64,000 nucleotides of DNA, taken from NCBI RefSeq assembly GCF_018141005.1, contig NZ_CP046582.1:558001-622000 (forward strand), in the 5' to 3' direction. This DNA comes from Erwinia sp. E602 (lineage in GTDB: Bacteria; Pseudomonadota; Gammaproteobacteria; Enterobacterales; Enterobacteriaceae). The position numbers and the translations under genes are program-made. Below are positions 21,880 through 37,094 of the stretch, piece by piece; the stretch's first letter is position 1, and the number at the start of each line of letters is the position of its first letter. The notes under the pieces were generated by a model. That model saw nothing but the letters and a program-made list of their open reading frames with translations. It was not told the DNA's origin and ran no database searches.

Positions 21880-22461
21880 TTAACGTTGCCTGATTACGAT
21901 GGCGTTAAGCCACTGCGTTGCATTAACCGGCCGGTTATCCGTCGTCTGCCAGCACGATCTCAGCGACAACTGTGGCAGTTCAGCCAGCAGCGTTTCAATC
22001 CGTGATTGGTCTAAATCAGTAAACGACCTTCCGTCGACTTCCCGCTCGCCGCTGCCCAACTTAAACGACAGATACCATACGCCGCTGGGCTTCAGCGCCC
22101 GCGCCAGAATTGCCATTACACCCGGTAGTTCACTGGCAGGCACGTGCAGCAGCGAGGCGCAGCACCAGATACCGTCATACTGCTCCACCGCCGTCAGCCG
22201 ATCGAAGCGCAGGCACTGCACCGGCAACCCGCTCAGCGCCGTGGCCCGCGCCACCATCTCGCTGGAGGCGTCAAAGGCATCGACCTGATAGCCGAGCTGG
22301 TGGAACGCCTGCGCATCGCGTCCCGAACCGCAGCCGGCATCGAGGATGCGCCCGCCCGCCGGCAGCTGCGCCAGGAACGGCTGATACAGCGCAGACATAT
22401 CAACGTTCACCGTATCGTCAAAAAAGCGCTGTGCGTGGCGCTGGTAGTAATCAATGCTCAT
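21880..22461 (-). CDS. Class I SAM-dependent methyltransferase
   Basis: The 193-residue product carries the SAM-binding motif I LDAGCGSGRDA (40-50), an acidic residue at the end of strand 2 (VDAFDAS), and the usual seven-strand fold. It resembles small-molecule methyltransferases; there is no DPPY/NPPY motif, so DNA methylation is unlikely. Its start overlaps the stop of the HNH nuclease gene (ATGA, 22458-22463), so both are one operon with tight coupling. The substrate is unknown. The pairing with a nuclease is discussed under findings. Confidence 0.85.
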   Translation of the reverse strand: MSIDYYQRHAQRFFDDTVNVDMSALYQPFLAQLPAGGRILDAGCGSGRDAQAFHQLGYQVDAFDASSEMVARATALSGLPVQCLRFDRLTAVEQYDGIWCCASLLHVPASELPGVMAILARALKPSGVWYLSFKLGSGEREVDGRSFTDLDQSRIETLLAELPQLSLRSCWQTTDNRPVNATQWLNAIVIRQR

Positions 22462-23471
22462 CAGAAGGTGGCCTCTCCCTGTGCTTCGGGTTCCCAGGTA
22501 TGCAGTAAGCTTTGCCGGGCGGTGTTCCAGCGGTCGTTGAGGTACTGCCTGCGTACCTTCTCACTTTTGCCGGTCTGCTCCAGCAGCGTTTCACGCAGCG
22601 GCAGATGACTGTTGATAAAGTATTCGTTACGCGTATGCAAGCGGCTCAGCAGCGGCACGGAGGGAATCCGCGCCGACTTGCTGCCGTTGCACGCCCGGCA
22701 GGCCAACACCAGGTTCCACACCCCGTCGAGGTTGCGCAGAATGCCCTGCGGCATCAGGCTCCACGGCAGAAAGTGATCGACCTGCGCCAGCGCATCATCC
22801 CCCGACAGGATGCTGATGCTGCGATAGCAGTAAAAGCATTTTCCCTTCTGGTAGCCGTTCAGGCTGTCGCGGCAGCTGGTTATGGTTGTGCGCCGCAGCC
22901 CCTGCCTGCTGAACAGCATCTGGTCCGCGGCGTCGTACTCGACCGCAATCATATTGCGCGACACGCCCAGCGCCCACGCCTGCTCGACCAGCCGCCAGCG
23001 CGCTTCGGTTTCCGGCAGCAGGTTTGCGAACTGCTCGCTTTCGGTCAGCCGGAAGAAGTTATCGGTCAGACGGATGCCCTTATGGCTGCGGCGTTCGTCG
23101 AGAAAGAAGCGCTTATCTATCTCGCCGTTATTCACGTTATGGAAGGCATCGATCACCGCACCAAAGCCCAGCTTTACCGTTGCCGCCTGCAGCGCAGCCG
23201 GATCCAGCTCACCACGGTTAAAGGCGTTACAGGCGTTCAGGAACTGGCTCTGCTTCGAGGTGTTCTGCTTTGGTGCCTGCTGCAGGTGCTCGCAGATATG
23301 CCGGGCAAACGGCAGCGCCAGGTCGTCCAGCGTAATCAGCTCGTTCTGCGCATCGCGCAGCTCATACAGCGCCTTCGCCAGCGCAAACTTGTAAGAGGCC
23401 ACGTTACGGCCAAACAGAATGATGCCGCGCCAGTAGTTCTCAAGCGTGGGATCGACCTGATAGAAGTGCAT
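22461..23471 (-). CDS. HNH endonuclease domain protein
   Basis: The 336-residue product has a large N-terminal region of unknown fold (about 1-205) and a C-terminal HNH nuclease: a zinc pair C212/C215, the catalytic VDHFLPWS block (231-238), and a second zinc pair with the conserved Asn, CRACNGSK (258-265). The full HNH signature suggests an active metal-dependent nuclease. It overlaps the methyltransferase gene downstream, and is the last gene before tRNA-Leu. Possible roles are phage defence or DNA repair; neither is shown by the sequence. Confidence 0.85.
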   Translation of the reverse strand: MHFYQVDPTLENYWRGIILFGRNVASYKFALAKALYELRDAQNELITLDDLALPFARHICEHLQQAPKQNTSKQSQFLNACNAFNRGELDPAALQAATVKLGFGAVIDAFHNVNNGEIDKRFFLDERRSHKGIRLTDNFFRLTESEQFANLLPETEARWRLVEQAWALGVSRNMIAVEYDAADQMLFSRQGLRRTTITSCRDSLNGYQKGKCFYCYRSISILSGDDALAQVDHFLPWSLMPQGILRNLDGVWNLVLACRACNGSKSARIPSVPLLSRLHTRNEYFINSHLPLRETLLEQTGKSEKVRRQYLNDRWNTARQSLLHTWEPEAQGEATF

Positions 23472-23962: not shown

Positions 23963-24123
23963 ATGCCTAAAATCCAGTCCCCGCAAGACTTTCCTCGCTT
24001 TTTCAGTCAACATAAGTCAACCTGATTCAATCTACATCAACTTAATGATGTGGGTACATCTGCGGGTATATCCCGGTTCGATAATGTTTGTACCCACACA
24101 GAACCCTTGAAAGGATATTCATC

Positions 24124-25377
24124 ATGGCTCTGAGTGATGTCAAGGTTCGTTCGGCTAAGCCTGAAGCAAAAGCCTATAAACTGACTGACGGTGAAGGCAT
24201 GGTTTTGCTGGTTCACCCTAACGGCTCCAAATACTGGCGGCTTCGTTATCGTTTTGGCGGCAAGGAGAAGATGCTGGCGCTGGGGAAATACCCTGAAGTG
24301 TCATTAGCTGATGCCAGAAATCGTCGGGATGAAGCCCGTGAGTTGTTAGCTAACGGCGTCGATCCTGGTGATAATAAGAAAGCTGTTAAGGTAGAGCAGG
24401 AGCAAGAGGCGATAACGTTTGAAGTGGTCGCTAGAGACTGGCATGCCAGTAATCAGAAGTGGTCTGCATCGCATAGTGCTCGTGTATTGAAAAGCCTAGA
24501 AGATAATCTCTTTGCTGCTATCGGTAAGCGGAACATTGCAGAGCTTAAGACTCGGGATCTTCTTGTACCCATTAAAGCGGTGGAGTCATCCGGGCGTCTT
24601 GAAGTCGCCGCCCGTTTACAGCAGCGAACTACCGCGATTATGCGCTTTGCCGTTCAGAGCGGCTTAATCGACTACAACCCCGCGCAAGAGATTGCCGGTG
24701 CGGTTGCTACGGCGAAAAGACAGCACCGTGCTGCATTAGAACTTAACCGCATTCCTGAATTACTTCACCGCATTGATCACTATTCTGGCAGGCCGTTAAC
24801 CCGACTGGCGGTTGAACTCACTTTGTTAGTTTTCATCCGTTCAAGCGAGCTGCGTTTTGCCCGTTGGTCAGAAGTAGATTTTGAAACCGCCATGTGGACC
24901 ATCCCCGGAGAACGTGAACCACTGGAAGGTGTTAAGCATTCACATCGAGGTTCAAAAATGCGCACTCCCCATCTTGTTCCCTTACCGAGTCAGGCCTTAG
25001 CTATTCTGGAAAAGATCAAAAGCATGAATGGGAACCGAGAGCTGATCTTCGTTGGCGATCACGATCCGCGTAAGCCGATGAGTGAGAACACGGTTAACAA
25101 GGCTTTGCGTGTGATGGGCTACGATACGAAGGTTGAGGTTTGCGGGCATGGTTTCAGGACTATGGCATGTAGTTCATTGATTGAATCAGGGTTGTGGTCG
25201 AAGGATGCGGTAGAAAGGCAGATGAGTCATCAGGAGCGTAACTCTGTGCGTGCGGCCTACATTCATAAGGCCGAGCATCTGGGAGAGCGCAGGCTGATGC
25301 TGCAGTGGTGGGCGGATTATCTGGATGCTAATCGGGAGAAAGGGGTTAGTCCGTTTGATTACTCGAAAGACAAATAG
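24124..25377 (+). CDS. P4-type tyrosine recombinase (island integrase)
   Basis: The 417-residue integrase would insert the island at the leuX 3' end. The N-terminal DUF4102 domain (MALSDVKVRSAKPEAKAYKL) is typical of P4-like integrases. Catalytic residues are R239 (FIRSSELR), H342/R345 (HGFRT), H369 and Y379. I chose the ATG at 24124, with AAAGGA upstream, over an upstream in-frame ATG at 24088. The catalytic set is complete, so it may be active. GC content is lower than the flanks, as for the whole island. No second att copy was found within the window. Confidence 0.95.
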   Translation: MALSDVKVRSAKPEAKAYKLTDGEGMVLLVHPNGSKYWRLRYRFGGKEKMLALGKYPEVSLADARNRRDEARELLANGVDPGDNKKAVKVEQEQEAITFEVVARDWHASNQKWSASHSARVLKSLEDNLFAAIGKRNIAELKTRDLLVPIKAVESSGRLEVAARLQQRTTAIMRFAVQSGLIDYNPAQEIAGAVATAKRQHRAALELNRIPELLHRIDHYSGRPLTRLAVELTLLVFIRSSELRFARWSEVDFETAMWTIPGEREPLEGVKHSHRGSKMRTPHLVPLPSQALAILEKIKSMNGNRELIFVGDHDPRKPMSENTVNKALRVMGYDTKVEVCGHGFRTMACSSLIESGLWSKDAVERQMSHQERNSVRAAYIHKAEHLGERRLMLQWWADYLDANREKGVSPFDYSKDK

Positions 25378-25625: not shown

Positions 25626-25853
25626 ATGATCCGCTGCCATCTTGCTCTGCTCATGGGCGAACATAAGATGCGAATAGCCGATGTTGTCAGGGAAACTGGA
25701 CTGAGTCGCAACACTATCACTTTGCTTTACAAAGAGACGGCTCAGAAAGTTGACCTGGATACATTAGAAAGGCTTTGCGTGCTTTTTGACTGTGAAATAC
25801 ACGATTTACTGCAAAAGGTTCCTGCTTCGCAGAATCGTATAGAGAAAAATTAA
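25626..25853 (+). CDS. XRE/Cro-type HTH regulator of the Type I RM operon
   Basis: The 75-residue protein is almost entirely one helix-turn-helix domain (IADVVRETGLSRNTITLLY, about 17-35, then VDLDTLERLCVLFDCEIHDLL). AAGGACC precedes its ATG. Its stop overlaps the ATG of the first hsdM gene (TAATG), so it is the first gene of the operon and translationally coupled to it. By analogy to controller proteins it probably represses the operon until methylation is established; that is inferred. A dyad just upstream is the candidate operator. Confidence 0.85.
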   Translation: MIRCHLALLMGEHKMRIADVVRETGLSRNTITLLYKETAQKVDLDTLERLCVLFDCEIHDLLQKVPASQNRIEKN

Positions 25854-27352
25854 TGACACTGATTAATCTAAAAGATCTTGAGGCCCATCTTTGGCATGCT
25901 GCCCATATCATTACTGGGCCTATTGATGCGTCAGATTACAAAACGTACATTTTCCCCATCCTGTTCTTCAAGCGCATTTGTGATGTATATGACGAAGAAG
26001 TTGCCGATGCGATGGTGAGCGTTGGGGATGCAGAACTTGCCAAGGGTAAGATGTTTCACCGTATTCAGATACCTGAAAATTGCCACTGGCGCGATGTTTT
26101 CGCTGAGACCAAAGACATAGGTCAGGCCCTGAAAGACTCTTTCCGTGGTATAGAACTGGCAAACTCTAAACTGCATGGCATTTTTGGCGATGCCAGCTGG
26201 ACCAATAAAGAACGCCTTTCAGATGAGCTACTGGCTACGCTACTTAATCATTTCAATAAGGTGAATCTGGGCGTTGCCAGTGTTCGTGATGATGATATGG
26301 GGCGCGCATACGAGTATTTAATCAAACGTTTTGCAGACAAAGCCAATAAGAAAGCCGGTGAGTTCTACACCCCACGCACTATTGTTCGCTTGATGGTTAA
26401 TATTCTTGATCCAAAAGCCGGTGAGAGCGTTTATGATCCCGCCTGTGGTACTGGTGGGATGCTGCTTGAGACTATCCACCATGTAAAAGAAAACGGTGGT
26501 GATCCGCGCTTGCTAAAAATTAAAGGTCAGGAAAAAAACCTGACCACCGAAGCCATCGCGCGAATGAACCTGTTCCTGCACGGTCAGGAGGATTTCGATA
26601 TTGTTCGTGGGGATACGTTGCGTGAACCTAAGTTTTTACAAAGCGATCGTTTAGAACGCTTTGACTGTGTTGTTGCCAACCCGCCGTTTAGCTTAAAGGA
26701 GTGGGGATACGATCTGTGGTCGAACGATCCCTATGGCCGTAAGCAATATGGCCTAGCGCCTAAAACAAACGGTGATTTTGCCTGGGTGCAGCATATGTTT
26801 GCCTCACTTAACGACAATGGGCGTATGGCTGTCGTGTTACCTCATGGTGTGCTATTTCGTGGCGGAGCTGAGGGAGTAATTCGAACCAAATTGCTGCAAG
26901 AAAATCGCATTGTGGCGATTATTGGTGTCGCTTCCAATCTATTCTATGGGACTGGTATTCCTGCGTGTATTTTGGTGCTACGCAAATCACGCCCGGCAAC
27001 GCATAAAGATCATGTATTGATCATCAATGCTGAAGAAATCTATACCAAGGGGCGTGCGCAGAATACGCTGTCCAACAAACAGGCTGATGACATATACCAA
27101 ATCTACCATGACCAGGCTGAACAAGGGCCAGATGCAAAAGAAATCGAAGGCGTTGCGCGCTGGGTTCCTCTAAAGGAGATTGAAGAAAATGACTTCAATC
27201 TTAATATTGCTCGTTATGTGCAAAAACCACTCGAAGAAGAAACCATCACTGTGGAAGAAGCGCTTAAAGATTTTCAACGGAAGCTGGCTGAGCTGGAAAA
27301 AGCAGAAGAGGAGCTGGAAGCCCTGCTTATCAAAGAAGGGTTCGAGGTATGA
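25853..27352 (+). CDS. hsdM: Type I RM methyltransferase subunit M1 (NPPF type, predicted m6A)
   Basis: The 499-residue product has the HsdM N-terminal helical domain (about 5-140), the FYTPR motif (171-175), the SAM site DPACGTGG (195-202) and catalytic motif IV NPPF (276-279), then a C-terminal coiled coil (about 460-499) that should contact HsdS. NPPF is the variant linked to N6-adenine methylation. It overlaps the second hsdM by four bases (ATGA). M1 and M2 share an aligned layout with the same motif order, but are clearly different proteins. The pair, rather than one repeated M, should form an M1M2S enzyme. Confidence 0.95.
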   Translation: MTLINLKDLEAHLWHAAHIITGPIDASDYKTYIFPILFFKRICDVYDEEVADAMVSVGDAELAKGKMFHRIQIPENCHWRDVFAETKDIGQALKDSFRGIELANSKLHGIFGDASWTNKERLSDELLATLLNHFNKVNLGVASVRDDDMGRAYEYLIKRFADKANKKAGEFYTPRTIVRLMVNILDPKAGESVYDPACGTGGMLLETIHHVKENGGDPRLLKIKGQEKNLTTEAIARMNLFLHGQEDFDIVRGDTLREPKFLQSDRLERFDCVVANPPFSLKEWGYDLWSNDPYGRKQYGLAPKTNGDFAWVQHMFASLNDNGRMAVVLPHGVLFRGGAEGVIRTKLLQENRIVAIIGVASNLFYGTGIPACILVLRKSRPATHKDHVLIINAEEIYTKGRAQNTLSNKQADDIYQIYHDQAEQGPDAKEIEGVARWVPLKEIEENDFNLNIARYVQKPLEEETITVEEALKDFQRKLAELEKAEEELEALLIKEGFEV

Positions 27353-28824
27353 GTACTATGAGTAATAAAAAGCTGGAAGAGCTGCTCTGGGGAGCCGCCG
27401 AATTTCTTCGTGGCCAAATCGACGCATCAGACTACAAGCAGTATGTCTTCCCGTTGCTGTTTTACAAACGCCTGTCAGATGTCTATCTGGAAGAATATAA
27501 CGAAGCGCTGGAACTCCATGAAGGTGATGCTGAATACGCCGCCATGCCGATGTTTCACCGTTTCAACATTCCCTCTGAGGCAGCTTGGGAAAAGGTCCGC
27601 AATACCAGTAAAAACATTGGTGAAGCGATCCAGAATGCGCTTCGACTGATTGAAGCCAAAAATCCACGCTTACATGGTGTCTTCGGTGATGCACAGTGGA
27701 CCAATAAAGAGCGCCTGCCCGATCATCTGCTGGCTGATCTGATTGAGCATTTCAGTAAAATTCCGCTCGGTATTAAATCTGTTGCCCAGGATGATCTTGG
27801 TGAAGCCTACGAATACCTGATTAAAAAGTTCGCTGATGATTCCGGCCATACGGCTGCAGAGTTTTACACCAATCGTACTGTCGTGCATTTAATGACGCGC
27901 ATTATGGGCTTAAAACCGGGTGAAACTGCCTATGATCCAACGTGCGGCACTGGCGGGATGTTGCTAAATGCAGTGATGGATCTTCGTTCAAGAGGGGAAG
28001 AGTGGCGCTCTGTGCATCTTTATGGCCAGGAAGTAAACTTGCTGACTTCCGCAATCGCCCGTATGAATATGTTCTTGCACGATATTGAAGAATTTGATGT
28101 GCTGCGCGGTGATACTCTGGCTGAACCTAAGTTTATTGAAAATGACCGGCTCAAGCAGTTTGATGTAATTTTTGCCAATCCTCCATATTCTATAAAAAAA
28201 TGGAACCGTGACAAATTTTCCGCCGATCCTTATGGACGTAATCTCTATGGCGTACCACCGCAGGGTTGTGCTGATTATGCGTTTTACACCCATATTATCA
28301 AAAGCCTGAAGCCAGATACCGGTCGTGCTGCCATGCTCTGGCCGCATGGTGTTCTATTCCGTGATTCTGAGCAAGCCATTCGGAAGCAGGTGATTGAATC
28401 TGATATTATTGAAGCCGTTATTGGGTTGGGGCCGAATCTATTCTATAACTCAACGATGGAATCATGCATTGTTGTTTTGAATAAATGCAAGCGCACAAGT
28501 AGGAAGGGCAATATCATTTTTATTGATGGATCCTCCGAAATTGTAAGTGATAGGAATCATAGTTATTTATCTGAAGAGAACATTAACGCCATAGTTTTAG
28601 CATTTAAATATCCCGAGAAAAACATGGGGGTTTCTACACTTGTGCCGTTGGGAATGATAAAGGAAAATGGATTTAATTTATCTATTCCGCTTTATGTTGC
28701 TAATGATTCTAGAAACAAGAAAGTGGATGTATATAAGACATTGGAGCTTTTTAAAATAACAATTAAAAAAAGAAAAAAAGCAACAAATAGTTATATCACT
28801 AATTTTGGTTCTTTGAGTGAGTGA
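27349..28824 (+). CDS. hsdM: Type I RM methyltransferase subunit M2 (NPPY type, predicted m4C)
   Basis: The 491-residue product parallels M1: helical N-terminal domain, FYTNR instead of FYTPR (172-176), SAM site DPTCGTGG (196-203) and catalytic motif IV NPPY (277-280). In the known two-M Type I systems the NPPY subunit makes N4-methylcytosine; that is the basis of the prediction. The start at 27349 overlaps the M1 stop; a second ATG is at 27358. From about residue 365 to the end base composition falls sharply to very AT-rich, matching hsdS downstream, so the C-terminal part may have been exchanged together with hsdS. Confidence 0.93.
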   Translation: MSTMSNKKLEELLWGAAEFLRGQIDASDYKQYVFPLLFYKRLSDVYLEEYNEALELHEGDAEYAAMPMFHRFNIPSEAAWEKVRNTSKNIGEAIQNALRLIEAKNPRLHGVFGDAQWTNKERLPDHLLADLIEHFSKIPLGIKSVAQDDLGEAYEYLIKKFADDSGHTAAEFYTNRTVVHLMTRIMGLKPGETAYDPTCGTGGMLLNAVMDLRSRGEEWRSVHLYGQEVNLLTSAIARMNMFLHDIEEFDVLRGDTLAEPKFIENDRLKQFDVIFANPPYSIKKWNRDKFSADPYGRNLYGVPPQGCADYAFYTHIIKSLKPDTGRAAMLWPHGVLFRDSEQAIRKQVIESDIIEAVIGLGPNLFYNSTMESCIVVLNKCKRTSRKGNIIFIDGSSEIVSDRNHSYLSEENINAIVLAFKYPEKNMGVSTLVPLGMIKENGFNLSIPLYVANDSRNKKVDVYKTLELFKITIKKRKKATNSYITNFGSLSE

Positions 28825-28831
28825 GTTATCT

Positions 28832-29941
28832 ATGAGTACTAAAAAAAGGCAAAGTTTTAATTTCTCTGAAATTGCGATGCAATCCACAATCTCAATAAAT
28901 AGGGATGATAATCCCTATGATAAATATGTTGAAGGAGGGCATATTGAAAGCAATACATTGAAGATAAGAAAATGGGGTGTTTTTGGTGATCAATATGTTG
29001 GCCCAGCTTTTCATCGTGTATTTAAAAAAGGACAGATACTTTATTGCTCACGAAGAACGTATTTAAAGAAAGTAGCAGTCCCTCATTTTGATGGAATTAC
29101 TTCCAACACAACTTTTGTCATTGAACCTAAAGTTGTTGATGGTTTTATTCCTCAACTATTGCCATTTATTATGTTGTCTTCAAATTTTACTCAGCATTCT
29201 GTCTTATATTCAAAGGGTTCAACCAATCCATATATTAATTATAAGGATTTGGAAGGGTTTGAGTTCTCACTACCTGGAGTTGCTGAACAGAATAAAATAT
29301 TAAATATTTTAAATAAAATCCAAGGGAATGAGCATGCACTTGTTGATTCTATATCTTCACTTATTAAACTCAATGACGTATTGTTGAGCGATAGTTTAAA
29401 AAAATCAGCCCCATCACTACCATTATCAAAATTGCTGACCGAAACAAAAAGATCAGTGAGTGATTTGTCGAGTGCTTCAAAACATATCGGTTTTGAACAT
29501 ATTAACTCTGATGACTTATTTGTCAGAGAGTGCGAGGAGGTTTCACAAATAAACTCTCATAAAAGCCTTTTCGAATATGGTGATATCCTATACGGTAAAA
29601 TAAGGCCGTACTTAAGGAAGGTTGCACTTTCTAATATGGAAGGTGTCTGTAGCTCAGATATTTTAGTATTAAGACCAGAAGTAACCGAGACTGCCATTAA
29701 TATAGCTTGGTACCTAAAAAGCACGTATTTTTCTAACGTAGCCATGTCATCAGCAAAGGGTTCTAAAATGCCTCGAGCTGATTGGAATGTTTTGCAGAAA
29801 CATACTATACCAGCTTCTTTTTTGGATGAGAAATATACTAAAATAGCAAAGGCATATTATGATCAACTGTCATATTTAAACGAGCAATTACGATTAACAA
29901 AAGAGTTGCAAATATCACTCACAGATAGACTTTTGGGGTAA
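28832..29941 (+). CDS. hsdS: Type I RM specificity subunit HsdS
   Basis: The start at 28832 (MSTKKRQSFNFSEI) lies 7 bp past the M2 stop; the open frame begins at 28817 inside hsdM2. The 369-residue product has the normal two-half layout: a target recognition domain (about 1-140), a helical spacer (about 145-185, GVAEQNKILNILNKI), a second recognition domain (about 190-330) and a C-terminal helical repeat (about 335-369). With two different M subunits, one half is expected to direct adenine and the other cytosine methylation. It is among the most AT-rich DNA in the window. Sequence specificity cannot be read. Confidence 0.9.
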   Translation: MSTKKRQSFNFSEIAMQSTISINRDDNPYDKYVEGGHIESNTLKIRKWGVFGDQYVGPAFHRVFKKGQILYCSRRTYLKKVAVPHFDGITSNTTFVIEPKVVDGFIPQLLPFIMLSSNFTQHSVLYSKGSTNPYINYKDLEGFEFSLPGVAEQNKILNILNKIQGNEHALVDSISSLIKLNDVLLSDSLKKSAPSLPLSKLLTETKRSVSDLSSASKHIGFEHINSDDLFVRECEEVSQINSHKSLFEYGDILYGKIRPYLRKVALSNMEGVCSSDILVLRPEVTETAINIAWYLKSTYFSNVAMSSAKGSKMPRADWNVLQKHTIPASFLDEKYTKIAKAYYDQLSYLNEQLRLTKELQISLTDRLLG

Positions 29942-29944
29942 TAT

Positions 29945-32900
29945 ATGTTTAGCGAACAAACCGTCACAGAAAATGGAATTATCGAACGTTTAAAAGGTTT
30001 AAACGGGGTCAAGTGGACATATTGCCATGGTGAAAAACTGCCTAAAAAAGCGCAGGATATCTTCGTTGATGAGTGGCTAAAAGACGCGCTTTGTTCGTTA
30101 AACCCCTACATAGGTAGACAATCTGACTATGCCGATGAGGTCATATATAAACTGCGGGGAGTGGTTTTAGAGGCTCGCCATACCGGTTTGGTAAAAGCCA
30201 ATGAAAACTTCCAGGAATGGTTGATGGCTGACAAAACCTTGCCTTTTGGCGAAAATGGCGACCATATCACCATCAATCTGATTGATTTTGACAATATAGA
30301 GAACAACCACTTTGTGGTGGCACAGCAGGTCCACTATGTCGCGGCCACTGAAGTTTATTTTGATATTGTCCTTTATGTGAACGGTATACCACTGGTAGTA
30401 GGCGAAGTTAAAACCGCCACACGCCCTAGCGTGACCTGGCAAGACGGCGCCGCCGATTTCATGGGCGGCAAAAAGTATTACTGGAAAAACGTTGAATCTT
30501 TCTTTGTACCTAACTTGCTGTGTTTTGCCAGCGAAGGAAAAACCTTTGCCTATGGCGCAATTAATGCCCGAGTTAAAGACTGGGGGCCCTGGCATAAAAC
30601 TGAGCTTCGTGATGAGATTCTGCCGGGATTAGCATCAGTACTCAACAGTTGCGAGAGTTTGTTAAATCCACAGACCTTATTGCAGCTACTGGAATCATTT
30701 GCATTATTTTCAACCGTCAAAACGGGAAAAAATACTCCACCTAAACGAGTTAAAATCCTGCCGCGTTATCCGCAATTTGAAGCAGCAAAACAAATCGTTG
30801 AGCGTGTTCGCAGAGGCTATCCAAAAAAAGGTCTGATTTGGCATTTCCAGGGATCGGGCAAATCCTTGCTGATGCTTTACGCTGCTAAAATGCTGCGTGC
30901 CGACAATGCGTTAAAAAATCCGACGGTACTCATCGTTGTGGATCGGCGAGATCTGGACAGCCAAATTAATGAGACCTTTGGTGGGGCCGACGTTAAGAAT
31001 CTGATTAAAGTGCAAAGTTGTAAAAAACTTGGCGAATACATTGAGCAAGACAGCCGTGGCATTTTAATCACCACCATCTTTAAATTTAAAGATATCGAAA
31101 TTGACGATAGCAACCCCAATGGCCTGAACAACCGTGACAACATCATTGTGTTAGTTGACGAAGCTCACCGTACCCAAGAAGGTGGGTTAGGCGAGAAAAT
31201 GCGCTGGGCGTTGCCCAATGCCCACTTCTATGGCCTGACGGGTACTCCGATTTCTGGCATTGATCGTAATACATTTAAGTTGTTCGGTGCCGAAGAAGAT
31301 CCTGGCCGCTATATGAGCCGCTATAGCTATAAGCAGTCGATCCGTGACGGCGCGACTAACCCGGTGAAGTTCGAACCTCGGTTGGCTGAACTCCGAGTGG
31401 ATCGTGATGCTATCAACGAAGAATTCGAGCAACTGGCTACCGAAAACAACCTGGATGAAGAAGAAAAAGCAGCATTGTCCAGACGCGCCGGCAAGCTGGC
31501 CGTCATGCTGAAATCTCCGAGACGCATGGCTGCGGTGAGTAATGACATTGTTGAGCATTTTACCAGCCATGTTATGCCGAAAAAGATGAAAGGCATGGTT
31601 GTGGTATACGATCGCGAAGCCTGTGTGCAGATGTATTATTTGCTCGGTGAAAAGCTCGGTTTTGATGCAGTTGAAGTGGTTATGAACGTTGACCAGGCTC
31701 CGGTTAAAGCTGAAGAGGGTGGTAAAAAAGATAAGCTCAACAAGGACTGGCTCAAATGGCATGACGAATTGGAGCTACCTGTTAAACAAGCTGATTTCGA
31801 ACGCTGGCAGCACATTGATGCAGAAGAGCAGGTACAAAAGGATCTGATTGAATGCTTTAAAGATCCTGTGCATCCGTTACAGCTTATCATCGTTACCGCC
31901 AAGCTGCTTACGGGCTTTGATGCACCAATTTGCTACTGCATGTACCTCGATAAGCCTCTACGCGATCATACTCTTCTTCAGGCCATGTGCCGAACCAACC
32001 GGTTGTATGAAACCGATGATGCACGCAAAGACATGGGGTTAATTATCGACTACCTCGGCGTTTTCGAAAATCTGCGTACCGCTCTGGCCTACAACCCTGA
32101 AGAAATTGAAGGGGTTGTAGAGGGAATCGAGGCATTTAAAGAGCTATTGCCGTTACAACTGAATAAATGTCTGGCCTTCTTCCCTGGTGTGGATCGTTCC
32201 ATAGAAGGTTTTGAAGGTATTATGGCTGCGCAGGAATGCCTGCCGACCAACGAGAAACGCGATGAATTCGCTGCCAGCTTTGGTGTGTTATCCAAGTTAT
32301 GGTCAGCTATCAATCCAGATCCTTTTTTAACCCCTTATCGTCAGGACTATAAATGGCTGGCGCAAATTTATGAATCGGTGCGTCCGGTGGGGCAGACAGG
32401 TGCGCTTGTTTGGGCTGCGCTTGGTCCTGAAACCATCAAAATGATCCATGAGCATACTGATATCAATCGTATTCGCGATGATATTGACGAGTTGATCATG
32501 GATGAGCACGCAATTTTTACCCTGACGGCTAAAGAACAGGAACAACGCGCAAAACGCCTGGAGATTGATCTTATGGGGCGTTTACGCGGTAGCCATGATC
32601 CTAAATTTGTGGCATTGGGTGAGCGTCTGGAAAAACTGCGTCAGGACTATGAAGCTGGTGTTATCAAGGCCATCGACTGGTTGAAAGGCCTGTTGGATGC
32701 TGCGAAAGATACCGTACAAGCCGAGCGCGAAACGGGCGAGCGCCCAGTAACTGAAGCTGATAATAAACAGGCTTTGACCAAGCTTTTCCTCGAAACACGC
32801 CCAGAAACTACCCCTAAGTTAATCGGTGATGTTGTAGAGCAAATTGATAAAATCGTGAAAGTTACCCGCTTTGATGGCTGGCAAAATTCCAACAGTGGCC

Positions 32901-33007
32901 CGCGTGAAATCCAAAAGGCGCTTTTGTTGACTCTGGCTCAGTTTGGATTAGGGAAAGATAAAGAGTTGTTCCGGAAAGCGTATGGGTACATTGAGGGACA
33001 TTATTGA
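29945..33007 (+). CDS. hsdR: Type I RM restriction subunit HsdR
   Basis: The 1020-residue motor-nuclease cleaves unmodified DNA after translocation. The N-terminal nuclease has D140 and E154-x-K156 (GEVKTA). The helicase part shows Walker A GSGKS (303-307), DEAH (405-408), TGTP (motif III) and QAMCRTNR (motif VI). A charged C-terminal region should bind M and S. It starts 3 bp after hsdS and is followed by a strong terminator, closing the operon. All key residues are present, so the restriction activity is predicted intact. Confidence 0.96.
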   Translation: MFSEQTVTENGIIERLKGLNGVKWTYCHGEKLPKKAQDIFVDEWLKDALCSLNPYIGRQSDYADEVIYKLRGVVLEARHTGLVKANENFQEWLMADKTLPFGENGDHITINLIDFDNIENNHFVVAQQVHYVAATEVYFDIVLYVNGIPLVVGEVKTATRPSVTWQDGAADFMGGKKYYWKNVESFFVPNLLCFASEGKTFAYGAINARVKDWGPWHKTELRDEILPGLASVLNSCESLLNPQTLLQLLESFALFSTVKTGKNTPPKRVKILPRYPQFEAAKQIVERVRRGYPKKGLIWHFQGSGKSLLMLYAAKMLRADNALKNPTVLIVVDRRDLDSQINETFGGADVKNLIKVQSCKKLGEYIEQDSRGILITTIFKFKDIEIDDSNPNGLNNRDNIIVLVDEAHRTQEGGLGEKMRWALPNAHFYGLTGTPISGIDRNTFKLFGAEEDPGRYMSRYSYKQSIRDGATNPVKFEPRLAELRVDRDAINEEFEQLATENNLDEEEKAALSRRAGKLAVMLKSPRRMAAVSNDIVEHFTSHVMPKKMKGMVVVYDREACVQMYYLLGEKLGFDAVEVVMNVDQAPVKAEEGGKKDKLNKDWLKWHDELELPVKQADFERWQHIDAEEQVQKDLIECFKDPVHPLQLIIVTAKLLTGFDAPICYCMYLDKPLRDHTLLQAMCRTNRLYETDDARKDMGLIIDYLGVFENLRTALAYNPEEIEGVVEGIEAFKELLPLQLNKCLAFFPGVDRSIEGFEGIMAAQECLPTNEKRDEFAASFGVLSKLWSAINPDPFLTPYRQDYKWLAQIYESVRPVGQTGALVWAALGPETIKMIHEHTDINRIRDDIDELIMDEHAIFTLTAKEQEQRAKRLEIDLMGRLRGSHDPKFVALGERLEKLRQDYEAGVIKAIDWLKGLLDAAKDTVQAERETGERPVTEADNKQALTKLFLETRPETTPKLIGDVVEQIDKIVKVTRFDGWQNSNSGPREIQKALLLTLAQFGLGKDKELFRKAYGYIEGHY

Positions 33008-33153: not shown

Positions 33154-33414
33154 AAGATTTCCTGAAATAACATGAGTGTTAAAATGATCTTCATCATATT
33201 AAGTAAATGACCCATGCCCCATCAGTTCGCATCTGATTGCTTGTCAGTTTCTTCGATACTGAAGATGCCTGTTCCGCATCAAGTGCAATGCTTTCTCCCA
33301 CTGTAATGATTTCCGCACCACACGCAATGCCAGAATGTAAGTATCCCTGCTAAACGCACCATTCACTTTTAGAGATCTTCCGGCATACTGATTGTGTCCT
33401 TGGAGGAGATCGCC

Positions 33415-33681
33415 ATGCGCAAAGCACGATTCACCGAACACCAGACCATCACCGTTCTGAAGTCCGTCGAAGCCGGACGTACCGTTAAAGATGTCTGCCG
33501 CGAAGCCGGGATCTCTGAGGCCTCGTATTACAACTGGAAAGCGAAGTTTGGCGGTATGGAAGCTTCTGATATCAAAAAGATGAAAGACCTCGAGTATGAA
33601 AACCGTCGGCTGAAACAGATGTTTGCGGACCTGAGTCTCGAATGCCGCGCCCTGAAAGACGTTATTGAAAAAAAGCTTTAA
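33415..33681 (+). CDS. IS3-family transposase OrfA
   Basis: The 88-residue product begins MRKARFTEHQTITVLKSVEA and contains the helix-turn-helix (about 20-42, ASYYNWKAKFGG) and leucine-zipper-like segment (about 52-88) typical of OrfA. GGAGGAG precedes the ATG. A slippery A-tract (GAAAAAAAGC, about 33667-33676) at its end is where the programmed -1 frameshift to OrfB would occur in an active element. It appears intact in itself, but the fusion partner is broken. Confidence 0.85.
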   Translation: MRKARFTEHQTITVLKSVEAGRTVKDVCREAGISEASYYNWKAKFGGMEASDIKKMKDLEYENRRLKQMFADLSLECRALKDVIEKKL

Positions 33682-33731
33682 GACCAGCGATAAAGCGTGA
33701 GCTGGTCAGCTATCTGACCGCGTAGTTTGCC

Positions 33732-34589
33732 ATGAGCTTACGTCAGGCATGCAGGACATTGTCGCTGAGCAGGACGGTATTTCGTTATCAGCCAGATACG
33801 CGACGTAATGAGCCGGTGATTGTGGTGCTGATCGCGGCGGCTGAACGCTATCCGCGGTACGGATTTAAGAAGCTTTTTCAGGTACTTCGTCGGCAGGGGT
33901 ATGCATGGAATCACAAACGTGTTCACCGGATTTACTGTCTTCTGAAACTGAATTTTCGCCGCAAGGGAAAACAGCGTCTGCCGGTACGTAACCCGGCTCC
34001 ACTGGCAACGCCTGAGGCGCTTAATCAGAGCTGGTCCATCGATTTTATGCACGACGCACTGGTCTGCGGGAGGCGCTTTCGGACTTTTAACGTGGTGGAT
34101 GATTTTAATCGGGAAGCGCTGGCAATAGAAATTGACCTGAATATCCCGGCGCAGCGGGTCGTGAGAGTGCTGGACAGGATCGTGGCAAACCGTGGATATC
34201 CGCTGAAGATGCGTATGGATAACGGGCCAGAGCTGGTCTCACTGGTTCTAGCCCAGTGGGCAGAAGAGCAGGGGGTAATGCTGGAATTTATCAGGCCCGG
34301 AAAGCCAACGCAGAATGCCTTTATCGAAAGGTTCAACCGGACGTACCGGACAGAAATACTGGATTTTTATCTGTTCAGTACGCTGAACGAAGCAAGGGAA
34401 ATCACAGAGCGCTGGCTTACCGAATACAACGGCGAATGCCCTCATGAGTCCTTGAACAACCTGACGCCGGACGAGTACCGGCTGATGGCTGAAACCCGAA
34501 AATCTCAAAAAGTGGCTGGAACTAAAACAGGTCTACTTATACCTCTACGACTAACCTATAGCCCACCAGTTCTCCGCTGCCCCCCATAG
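33732..34589 (+). pseudogene. IS3-family transposase OrfB, disrupted
   Basis: The open part encodes the DDE integrase core with WSIDFMHD, RMDNGPE and NAFIERFNRTYR, so the catalytic triad is visible. The -1 frame from orfA reads KKALRPAIKRELVSYLTA and then TAG (33723-33725), where relatives usually have Gln, so the normal OrfAB fusion stops before the catalytic core. At about 34493-34500 one base appears lost: another frame gives the usual family ending ISKSGWN with stop at 34523-34525, while this frame runs on with unrelated residues. Both lesions argue for an inactive copy. Confidence 0.8.
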
Positions 34590-34697: not shown

Positions 34698-35648
34698 ATG
34701 AACCTCAAGCAACGAATAGAATCCATCCCCGGCGGCATGATGGTGATCCCCTTAGCCCTCGGCGCACTGCTCAACACTTTCCACCCCCAGGCACTCGAGA
34801 TCGGCGGTTTCACCACCGTACTCTTCAAAAACGGCGCCGCCCCCCTGATCGCCGCCTTTCTGCTGTGCATGGGTGCAGGCATCACCCTCAGAACCGCCCC
34901 CAAAGCCTTGCTGGCAGGCAGCACCATCACCCTGACCAAGCTGCTGGTCGCCGTTGTGCTCGGGCTGGCCGTTGACCGCGCGTTCGGAACAGAAGGGCTG
35001 TTTGGCCTGAGCGGGCTGGCGATTATCGCGGCGATGAGCAACTCCAACGGCGGGCTGTATGCCGCGCTGGTCGGCGAGTTCGGCAACCAGCGGGACGTGG
35101 GGGCGATTTCGATTCTGTCGCTGAACGACGGGCCGTTTTTTACCATGATCGCGCTGGGCGCGGCCGGGATGGCGAGCATTCCGCTGATGTCGCTGGTGGC
35201 GGTGCTGGTGCCGCTGGCGCTGGGGATGCTGCTGGGCAATCTTGACCCGCAGATGCGCGCGTTCCTAACCCGCGGCGGGCCGGTGCTGATACCGCTGTTT
35301 GCCTTTGCGCTGGGGGCGGGCATCAATCTGGAGATGCTGCTGCAGGGCGGGCTGGCCGGTATTGTGCTGGGCGTGCTGACCACGCTGGTTGGTGGCCTGT
35401 TTAATATGGCAGCCGATCGTCTGGTGGGTGGCTCCGGGGTGGCCGGGGCGGCGGCGTCCAGCACCGCCGGTAATGCGGTTGCCACGCCGCTGGCGATCGC
35501 GCAGGCCGACCCGTCGCTGGCGCAGGTGGCAGCCGCCGCCGCACCGCTGATTGCCGCGTCGGTGATAACCACCGCCATTCTGACGCCGCTGCTGACCTCG
35601 TGGGTGGCAAGGCGCAACGCACGCAGGCCGTTAAAGGAGGCAGTATGA
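34698..35648 (+). CDS. KdgT-family acid-sugar permease
   Basis: The 316-residue membrane protein belongs to the 2-keto-3-deoxygluconate permease family (start MNLKQRIESIPGGMMVIPLALGA, with about ten hydrophobic segments and a conserved NSNGGLYAAL motif near residue 116-125). Its gene order with DUF1537 kinase, PdxA2 and a DeoR regulator suggests uptake of a four-carbon acid such as D-threonate rather than of KDG. I chose the ATG at 34698; upstream the frame is open but non-conserved. Its TGA overlaps an ATG (ATGA at 35645-35648). The IS remnant ends just upstream. Confidence 0.87.
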   Translation: MNLKQRIESIPGGMMVIPLALGALLNTFHPQALEIGGFTTVLFKNGAAPLIAAFLLCMGAGITLRTAPKALLAGSTITLTKLLVAVVLGLAVDRAFGTEGLFGLSGLAIIAAMSNSNGGLYAALVGEFGNQRDVGAISILSLNDGPFFTMIALGAAGMASIPLMSLVAVLVPLALGMLLGNLDPQMRAFLTRGGPVLIPLFAFALGAGINLEMLLQGGLAGIVLGVLTTLVGGLFNMAADRLVGGSGVAGAAASSTAGNAVATPLAIAQADPSLAQVAAAAAPLIAASVITTAILTPLLTSWVARRNARRPLKEAV

Positions 35649-35838
35649 AGCTGAGGGAAATCACCACTGCGAACCTGATGCCTTTACTAACCTCGTGGAG
35701 AGAAACAGGCAGCGCGCACAGCCAATTAAAGGAGGCAATATGGAGCTAAGGGAAATCACCACTGCGAACCTTACGCCGTTACTGGCCCCGTGGAGAGAAA
35801 CAGGCAGCGCGCGCAATCCGCTGAAGGAGGCCGCATGA
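35645..35838 (+). repeat. 95-bp tandem repeat of the gene junction, with two mini-ORFs
   Basis: ATG start sites recur at 35645, 35740 and 35835, exactly 95 bp apart; the third is the real kinase start. The intervening units are two imperfect copies (about 80% identical) and each ends with the ribosome site AAGGAGG. Unit 1 encodes 34 residues (MKLREITTANL..., 35645-35749), unit 2 encodes 32 residues (MELREITTANL..., 35740-35838). The mini-ORFs overlap their neighbours (ATGA at both ends). Confidence 0.9.
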
Positions 35839-37094
35839 AGCTGATTGTGATAGCCGATGATTTTACCGGTGCCTGCGATACCGGCGCGCAGCTGGCAAAA
35901 AACGGCGTACGCACCGAGGTGCTGCTCACCCCGCAGCAGAGACCGTCACCGTGCAGCGATGTGCTGGTGGTGAATACCGAAAGTCGTGCCAGCGCGGCGG
36001 CGGCGGCGGCACGCACCGTAGCTCAGGTGCTGCATCCGTGGTGCACGCCCGGTCAGGATCCGCCGCTGGTGTTTAAAAAAATTGATTCGACCTTTCGTGG
36101 CAACGTCGGGGCCGAGGTGGAAGCTGCGATGCTTGCGGCGGGCAAGCGGCTGGCGGTGATCGCAGCGGCCATCCCCGCCGCCGGGCGCACCACCGAGCAG
36201 GGCGAGTGCCGGGTGCATCAGGTGCCGCTGCTGGAGACGGCGTTTGCCCGCGATGCGGTTACGCCGCTGGCCTCTTCCCGCATCCGCACGCTGATCGCCG
36301 CGCAGAGCCGTCTGCCGGTGTATGAGATTGGCCTGCATCAGGTCAGGTATCACCAGCTGGGGAGTGCGTTAGCCCGGCTCTGCACGGGTGGCCGCGCGAT
36401 GGTGGTGGTGGATGCGGTAACGGACGACGATCTGCAGCAGATTGCCCGCGCGGCGCTGGCGATGCCGCAGGTGCCGCTGCTGGTCGGGGCGGCCGGGCTG
36501 GCGCACGCGCTGCCGGTGGCGGCCTATCGTCATCACGCCCTGCCGGTGCTGGTGGTGGCCGGATCGATGAATGAGGTCACCCGCCGTCAGGTGGAGGCGG
36601 CCAGGCAGCGCGGTCACGCTGAGGTGGTTGAAGTGGCGATGGCCGTGCTGCTTGGCAGCGCCTCCGGTAGCGAACTGCAACAGCTGGCGGAGCAGGTGGC
36701 GCGTCACCTGGCCCACGGGCGGCACTGCATTCTCTGCACCCGCCAGCAGGCGCGGGAGCGCACGACGGTCAGCCGCTACTGCCAGCAGCATCTGCTCACC
36801 CGTCGCCAGGTGGCCGGGCAGATTAGCCAGCAGCTCGGCAGGCTGGCGCATAGGGTGACCGGGCTGACCCGCATCGGCGGGCTGATCCTCACCGGGGGCG
36901 ATACCGCCGCCGCGGTGGCCGTCGCGCTGGGGGCGCATGGCTACCGGATTGCCGGTGAGGTTGCCGCCTGTATTCCCTTCGGCACGCTGACGGGCGGTGA
37001 AATCGACGATATCCCGGTGATCACCAAAGCGGGCGGTTTTGGCGCAGAGAGTGCGCTGTGCGACGCGCTGACCTTTATTGAGGAGAGGTACTGA
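35835..37094 (+). CDS. dtnK: DUF1537 four-carbon acid sugar kinase (D-threonate/erythronate kinase type)
   Basis: The 419-residue enzyme belongs to the DUF1537 family, shown to phosphorylate four-carbon acid sugars such as D-threonate or D-erythronate at O4. The N-terminal substrate domain begins MKLIVIADDFTGACDTGAQLA, and FKKIDSTFRGNVG (about 83-95) is a family motif; the C-terminal nucleotide domain has LTGGDTAAAV (about 358-367). The start at 35835 is the third ATG in the 95-bp array, with AAGGAGG upstream. Its stop overlaps pdxA2 (TGATG). The exact substrate is inferred from context; dtnK is used tentatively. Confidence 0.85.
   Translation: MKLIVIADDFTGACDTGAQLAKNGVRTEVLLTPQQRPSPCSDVLVVNTESRASAAAAAARTVAQVLHPWCTPGQDPPLVFKKIDSTFRGNVGAEVEAAMLAAGKRLAVIAAAIPAAGRTTEQGECRVHQVPLLETAFARDAVTPLASSRIRTLIAAQSRLPVYEIGLHQVRYHQLGSALARLCTGGRAMVVVDAVTDDDLQQIARAALAMPQVPLLVGAAGLAHALPVAAYRHHALPVLVVAGSMNEVTRRQVEAARQRGHAEVVEVAMAVLLGSASGSELQQLAEQVARHLAHGRHCILCTRQQARERTTVSRYCQQHLLTRRQVAGQISQQLGRLAHRVTGLTRIGGLILTGGDTAAAVAVALGAHGYRIAGEVAACIPFGTLTGGEIDDIPVITKAGGFGAESALCDALTFIEERY

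Follow-up and report, generated by a model that had tools for sequence, protein, structure and literature searches.

A type I restriction–modification operon of the PacII kind in Erwinia sp. E602, predicted to make m6A and m4C and carrying an exchanged hsdM2–hsdS block

Type I restriction–modification (RM) enzymes of the EcoR124I type use one HsdM subunit twice and place N6-methyladenine (m6A) on both strands. In PacII, the closest described system, an M1 subunit with the motifs AGEF and NPPF makes m6A and an M2 subunit with AAEF and NPPY makes N4-methylcytosine (m4C), a discovery which the account of PacII credits to its reference 12 (PMC9613975). During assembly M1 binds the specificity subunit S first and M2 joins later, M2 alone showing no binding to S; the tails of the M subunits build a four-helix bundle with S, and residue R75 of S touches the CCC half-site. 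PacII M2 is able to methylate adenine if presented with it, whilst M1 takes adenine only (PMC9613975). Here an operon of this kind is described in Erwinia sp. E602, within a stretch of 64,000 nucleotides (NZ_CP046582.1, positions 558,001 to 622,000 of the forward strand) referred to as the window. The locus very probably represents a complete, non-canonical M1M2S operon which would place m4C through target recognition domain (TRD) 1 and M2, and m6A through TRD2 and M1, accompanied by an integrase at a tRNA-Leu gene and retargeted by exchange of a block.

Two HsdM subunits of the PacII kind

Positions 25626-33007 of the window hold five intact open reading frames (ORFs) arranged head to tail, encoding a small helix-turn-helix (HTH) protein, HsdM1, HsdM2, HsdS and HsdR (Table 1). 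Successive overlaps of 1, 4 and 8 bases join the genes from the HTH gene to hsdS, and a gap of 3 bases separates hsdS from hsdR. The initial annotation had recognised this content, two distinct overlapping hsdM genes with one hsdS, one hsdR and an HTH gene of their own, and its motif readings also hold: NPPF at residues 276-279 and FYTPR in M1, NPPY at residues 277-280 and FYTNR in M2. Across the 5.17-Mb genome, N6_Mtase matches (E up to 0.001) are confined to the two hsdM genes, and no PF01555 methylase gene was found. HsdR scores 479.7 bits against TIGR00348 hsdR (cut-off 284.55) and carries DEAH and E-x-K motifs. For hsdS a downstream ATG offers an alternative start, giving a form of 369 amino acids (aa) which matches a protein record (P0002).

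Among solved structures the best match by sequence to M1 is PacII M1 (PDB 7VRU chain A), end to end at E=8.3e-294, and that to M2 is PacII M2 (chain B of the same entry, E=3.4e-264). Of the PacII residues taken from PMC9613975 for their part in catalysis or in contacts between subunits or with DNA, M1 retains 12 of 12 and M2 20 of 22. M2 R21, the counterpart of PacII Arg29 which reaches the M1 pocket, is retained along with its M1 contacts E170, F279 and S280, and so is the M2 equivalent of PacII R410.

When species genomes were scanned with M2, 294 stretches were found to encode relatives, and the best 80 were analysed as loci. M2 carries NPPY and AAEFYTNR in all 80, and an NPPF M1, whole or broken, lies at the same locus in 71; the nine without M1 comprise four with 0.3-2.2 kb upstream to the contig end and five with 3.7-10 kb. 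A tree was built from 85 HsdM sequences, with rows from 24 of the 80 genome loci and three of seven E. coli loci (hand-picked), from L085 and L086, and from 24 of 28 standard type I loci, the four omitted having ORFs of more than 700 aa. The seven E. coli loci were themselves chosen from the best-covered matches and are not a random sample. In this tree 30 M1 sequences fall in one set (support 81), 31 M2 sequences form one clade (100) and 24 standard HsdMs stand apart from both; the tree was made by a quick method, its outgroup branches are long and the placement of EcoKI in it is unsure. The M2 alignments omit the locus of Phytobacter massiliensis (L041) because its hsdM2 frame is broken (L041:10001-11484), through sequencing error or in reality; the gene is intact in the E. 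coli copies.

NPPY is also present in standard HsdMs, including one that matches EcoR124 M over nearly its whole length, and EcoR124-type HsdMs are standard adenine enzymes. The same motif occurs in M.TaqI, another adenine enzyme (PMC3874165). NPPY alone was thus rejected as a sufficient marker of m4C formation, and the link drawn in the initial annotation between NPPF and adenine and between NPPY and cytosine holds for PacII but is not diagnostic on the second motif. The assignment of M2 to the m4C type is well supported on other sequence grounds, namely its clade, its AAEF motif and its M1 partner. The m6A/m4C subgroup with two HsdMs to which the initial annotation had pointed does exist, and the PacII account (PMC9613975) fits it. 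The proposal that the Erwinia operon encodes such an enzyme gains support from the 7VRU matches, the retained residues and the tree, where HsdM2 does not cluster with standard m6A subunits.

Exchange of the hsdM2 tail together with hsdS

The operon was compared at the nucleotide level with the P. massiliensis copy and the seven E. coli copies (L088-L094). In all eight comparisons identity is 89-92% until hsdM2 nucleotide 1127-1142, beyond which the sequences cannot be aligned, and identity of 93-95% resumes from hsdR nucleotide -12 to +1; L091 and L093 share one identical block. The breakpoints thereby lie at 28475-28490 on the left and 29932-29945 on the right. GC content is 30-35% within the block and 44-49% in hsdM and hsdR on either side. 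When the eight other copies are compared with one another (28 comparisons), the left block extends to hsdM2 nucleotide 1402 or further.

The hsdM2 part of the exchanged block comprises the last 110-115 codons, residues 1 to about 376-381 being typical of the family. Over residues 1-380 the median identity to 49 relatives is 91%, falling to 35% over residues 381-440 and 27% over residues 441-491, where the 49 relatives among themselves reach 68% and 52%. M1 shows no comparable break and its tail is typical. A second tail outlier, L029, groups with the Erwinia M2 in the HsdM tree. Among the 128 candidates sharing words with the tail, to which the search was limited, a single relative was found (P0001, 98% identical in that search and 97-100% in the alignment with the relatives). 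The best relative of the S protein besides itself is 64% identical, and a search of 5426 E. coli genomes gave no match to positions 28490-29940.

Since the exchanged block takes in the hsdM2 tail besides hsdS, M2 is, as judged from its sequence, a chimaera; and since the breakpoint lies inside hsdM2, the unit of specificity which is exchanged reaches into the methylase gene. That the tail is merely fast-evolving is disfavoured, as the sharp break in nucleotide identity coincides with the drop in GC content. The initial annotation missed the foreign C-terminal tail of M2 exchanged with hsdS. The bundling of M tails with S in PacII (PMC9613975) may be the reason for the joint exchange.

TRD classes, a lineage lacking M1 and alternative readings

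The modelled HsdS fold resembles that of PacII in having two TRDs and a pair of long helices, the structural alignment giving 25% identity. R75 and R76 of PacII are retained in TRD1. The target is probably other than that of PacII, because S is only 25% identical and H94 and Q79 of TRD1 are changed.

A profile of TRD1 was built from 62 related S subunits, the Erwinia protein being left out. S ORFs of 340-480 aa were found at 69 of the 80 loci, and loci with a short or missing S were left out of the TRD counts, as were L024, L025, L054 and L080, which each have one M2-matching frame of 903-932 aa, of a length that could take in S as well, and are possible M2–S fusions. Usable S subunits came from 19 of the 28 standard loci. 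A further 16 loci were fetched later, and in 11 of them S contains a domain of the TRD1 class, L141 duplicating L060. Outside the set lacking M1 described below there are 72 S subunits, nine of them fetched after the model was built and two (L005 and L044) from loci near a contig end with no M1 seen.

With this profile the Erwinia TRD1 scores 160 bits and TRD2 95 bits, and the 19 standard S subunits score at most 36 bits; an earlier TRD model which included rows lacking M1 gave up to 57.5 bits on halves of standard S. In 72 of 72 S subunits the best match is N-terminal, at least 190 bits, with any second match at 103 bits or less, although these TRD1 scores are partly a matter of construction, as 62 of the 72 domains trained the model. 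L074 was excluded from the second TRD model on account of its extended S start. The column of PacII R75 holds Arg in all 72 (64 Arg-Arg, 8 Arg-Asn) and in the Erwinia TRD1. It holds Ile in the Erwinia TRD2, in the second domains of the L008, L018 and L019 proteins and in those of four protein matches taken without their M partners (P0003, P0004, P0005, P0011). In the five other weak C-terminal matches it is Val (L006), Arg (L126) or, in three, a gap. In a TRD tree with hand-picked rows, the Erwinia TRD1 groups inside the TRD1 clade (96/90), and TRD2 joins the C-terminal TRDs of L019, P0003, P0004 and P0005 in a clade sister to it (100/100). The C-terminal pieces of two M1-bearing loci, L048 and L074, also fall inside the TRD1 clade; whole-protein scans find one TRD1-class domain in each, and the pieces appear misplaced because extended S starts displaced the cut. 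The sequences thus predict m4C for the half-site of TRD1, a domain of the M2-linked class with R75, and m6A for that of TRD2, which is of a related class without the key arginine.

Seven loci (L056, L059, L060, L062, L067, L075 and L132) have M2, S and R with no M1 in view. Their M2 sequences form one clade (100) nested within M2, and of 12 PacII M2 positions all are retained in five loci, L056 and L075 differing at K167 only. A search of six of these genomes, whole, gave no M1 match of M1-like strength; besides M2 there were weaker matches, one in the L067 genome (33-34% identity) and two in the L132 genome (27-28%). L059, whose contig starts 295 bases before M2, lay outside this search. In the S subunits of all seven the C-terminal TRD is of the TRD1 class (187-241 bits); the N-terminal TRD is so too in four (162-226 bits), the other three scoring 20, 20 and 53 bits there; the locus of Portibacter marinus (L060) is one with two TRD1-class domains. 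This lineage seems to represent a naturally occurring type I enzyme with M2 only, (M2)2S, which would make m4C, and on both strands where both TRDs fit. No description of an M2-only type I system was found among the titles and abstract openings listed, which is weak evidence as the subscription literature is mostly uncovered. Cytosine-only enzymes were reportedly engineered in a 2016 paper by swapping the adenine TRD. The chances are evenly balanced for the joint proposal that TRDs of this one class, when PacII position 75 is Arg, act with M2 (m4C) and other TRDs with M1 (m6A), and that the lineage lacking M1 is a natural (M2)2S one.

In the mechanism envisaged for the Erwinia enzyme, HsdS would bind a two-part DNA site, TRD1 presenting cytosine to HsdM2 to give m4C and TRD2 presenting adenine on the other strand to HsdM1 to give m6A, and the complex with two HsdR subunits would cleave DNA without these marks. 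The exchanged hsdM2 tail and hsdS would most likely direct it to a different target, the tail having moved with the S helices against which it would pack. Several observations weigh against parts of this scheme. Two PacII positions are changed in M2 (R11T, D19E), and two of the 16 later loci (L126 and L140) have an M2 with no recognisable AAEF; the weak C-terminal match of L126 (27 bits) is also the one with Arg in the R75 column. Two of six contact residues of TRD1 are altered (H94T, Q79L), the TRD1 scores are to a degree built in, and TRD2 at 95 bits is distant kin of the TRD1 class. Given the divergence of the M2 tail, assembly of M2 with M1 and S is a prediction, and in a model of this tail a helix is predicted at residues 461-486 with modest confidence (10-residue means over 451-490 of 50, 73, 77 and 66).

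Were the foreign tail to misfit, M2 would be lost and M1 with S alone would be active, with m4C absent and one strand carrying m6A in part. Although the tail has one relative among 128 candidates and is unlike those of the 49 M2 relatives, and PacII M2 joins only after M1 has bound S and does not bind S alone (PMC9613975), this outcome is unlikely: a single exchanged block contains both the tail and hsdS, all genes are intact, the same tail is 97-100% conserved in P0001, the PacII R410 equivalent is retained, and an hsdR without a full methylase would presumably be costly. It is less probable still that M2 makes m6A in an ordinary m6A/m6A enzyme with two diverged HsdMs. Its place within the PacII M2 clade, the retained AAEF and pocket residues and a TRD1 of the M2-linked class with R75 all argue otherwise, even though adenine HsdMs with NPPY exist and PacII M2 methylates adenine if given one (PMC9613975). 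Least probable of all is the presentation of cytosine at both half-sites, giving m4C on both strands, for which the score of TRD2 might be cited, as it exceeds those of the 19 standard S subunits and every second match in the 72 but that of L019 (103 bits). TRD2 nonetheless sits outside the TRD1 clade in its own set of five (100/100) with Ile for R75, and M1, which takes adenine only in PacII, has been retained.

Genomic setting and relation to known systems

Table 1. Features of the operon and its surroundings (window positions unless stated)
Feature	Position	Strand	Basis
tRNA-Leu, CAA anticodon	23841..23925	+	ARAGORN; apparent integration site
Tyrosine integrase	24088..25377	+	Pfam Phage_integrase, Phage_int_M, Arm-DNA-bind_3
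Small Cro/C1-type HTH protein, 75 aa	25626..25853	+	PF13443 HTH_26, E=2.5e-18
hsdM1, putative m6A-type subunit, 499 aa, AGEFYTPR and NPPF	25853..27352	+	N6_Mtase and HsdM_N
hsdM2, putative m4C-type subunit, 491 aa, AAEFYTNR and NPPY	27349..28824	+	N6_Mtase and HsdM_N
Exchanged block, 3' end of hsdM2 and entire hsdS, ~1.45 kb	28476..29944	+	Composition, identity breaks
hsdS, 374 aa, GTG start	28817..29941	+	Pfam Methylase_S
HsdS layout	TRD1 ~10-154, helix CR1 155-195, TRD2 ~198-337, helix CR2 338-373 (residues)		
hsdR, restriction/translocation subunit, 1020 aa	29945..33007	+	HSDR_N, SWI2_SNF2 and T1R_D3-like

An M2-type match occurs in 12 of 398 genomes of the phylum, and among 5426 E. coli genomes 107 contain a close match to the Erwinia M1. 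Six of the seven fetched E. coli loci have the operon with the same integrase, and all six adjoin tRNA-Leu; the integrase is 93-96% identical in these copies and 91% in that of P. massiliensis. No repeat of the 3' end of tRNA-Leu that would mark the right end of the element was found within the 64-kb window. The HTH gene precedes M1 in seven of the 80 genome loci and in six of the seven E. coli loci. Its product is likely the regulator of the operon; no convincing palindrome common to the upstream regions of 13 loci was found as a shared operator.

In many relatives hsdM1 and hsdM2 are separated by additional genes (for example L001:7916-10004 and L061:8316-9998). Seven such ORFs from six loci were compared with Pfam: one matches DUF4062, two match Schlafen AlbA_2/Fic-like_C and four have no match. 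Two frames of an IS3-type transposase (HTH_Tnp_1, rve) lie shortly past hsdR at 33394-34589, and IS3-family features are likewise found downstream of hsdR in the E. coli loci L089 and L092. To the right of the operon is a kdgT-like gene with relatives in eight of 30 genomes of the genus, that of the window included; three tandem 95-bp copies (35565-35849; 69-73% identical to the first) span its end and the start of the next gene. Across tRNA-Leu an HNH-domain protein is encoded on the minus strand (22461-23471), with weak PtuB/Cas9 HNH-like matches, and a 64% relative of it lies upstream of the integrase in the P. massiliensis locus.

With the Erwinia operon read as one in which TRD1 and M2 would make m4C and TRD2 and M1 m6A, the type I enzymes which mark cytosine gain a firmly placed member, probably of a specificity not met before. 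The exchange indicates that a specificity unit can include the methylase tail that would dock on S, which bears on the retargeting of such enzymes. The TRD marker, if true, would allow the methylation chemistry of relatives not yet characterised to be predicted across the 294 stretches which encode them. This phage-defence operon is of a kind that is known but uncommon; what is probably new is the chimaeric M2 with its exchanged S block, a specificity not seen before and a testable TRD marker.

A number of parallels and differences can be drawn with described and sequenced systems. The operon shares with PacII (PDB 7VRU, 7VS4; PMC9613975) the NPPF/NPPY and AGEF/AAEF pair of HsdMs, a single S and a single R, the catalytic and interface residues, the S fold and R75/R76 of TRD1, whilst its S is only 25% identical, H94 and Q79 of TRD1 are changed, the M2 tail is unlike and an HTH gene stands upstream. 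The E. coli M1M2SR copies (for example NZ_CP012379, L088) and that of P. massiliensis share the integrase and the HTH gene (each in six of seven E. coli loci), the N-terminal part of M2, M1 (97-99% identical in the E. coli copies) and HsdR (97-98% in seven copies). They differ in the 3' end of hsdM2 and in hsdS, the hsdM2 frame of the P. massiliensis copy being broken besides. EcoR124I-type systems have in common with the operon the HsdM family, NPPY in HsdM and S and R subunits; in contrast, they have the motif GGEFFTP and occupy a separate branch of the tree, and the Erwinia operon has two M genes. By its sequence, with two M genes and a position outside the standard branch, it is therefore not a standard m6A/m6A type I system such as EcoR124I or EcoKI.
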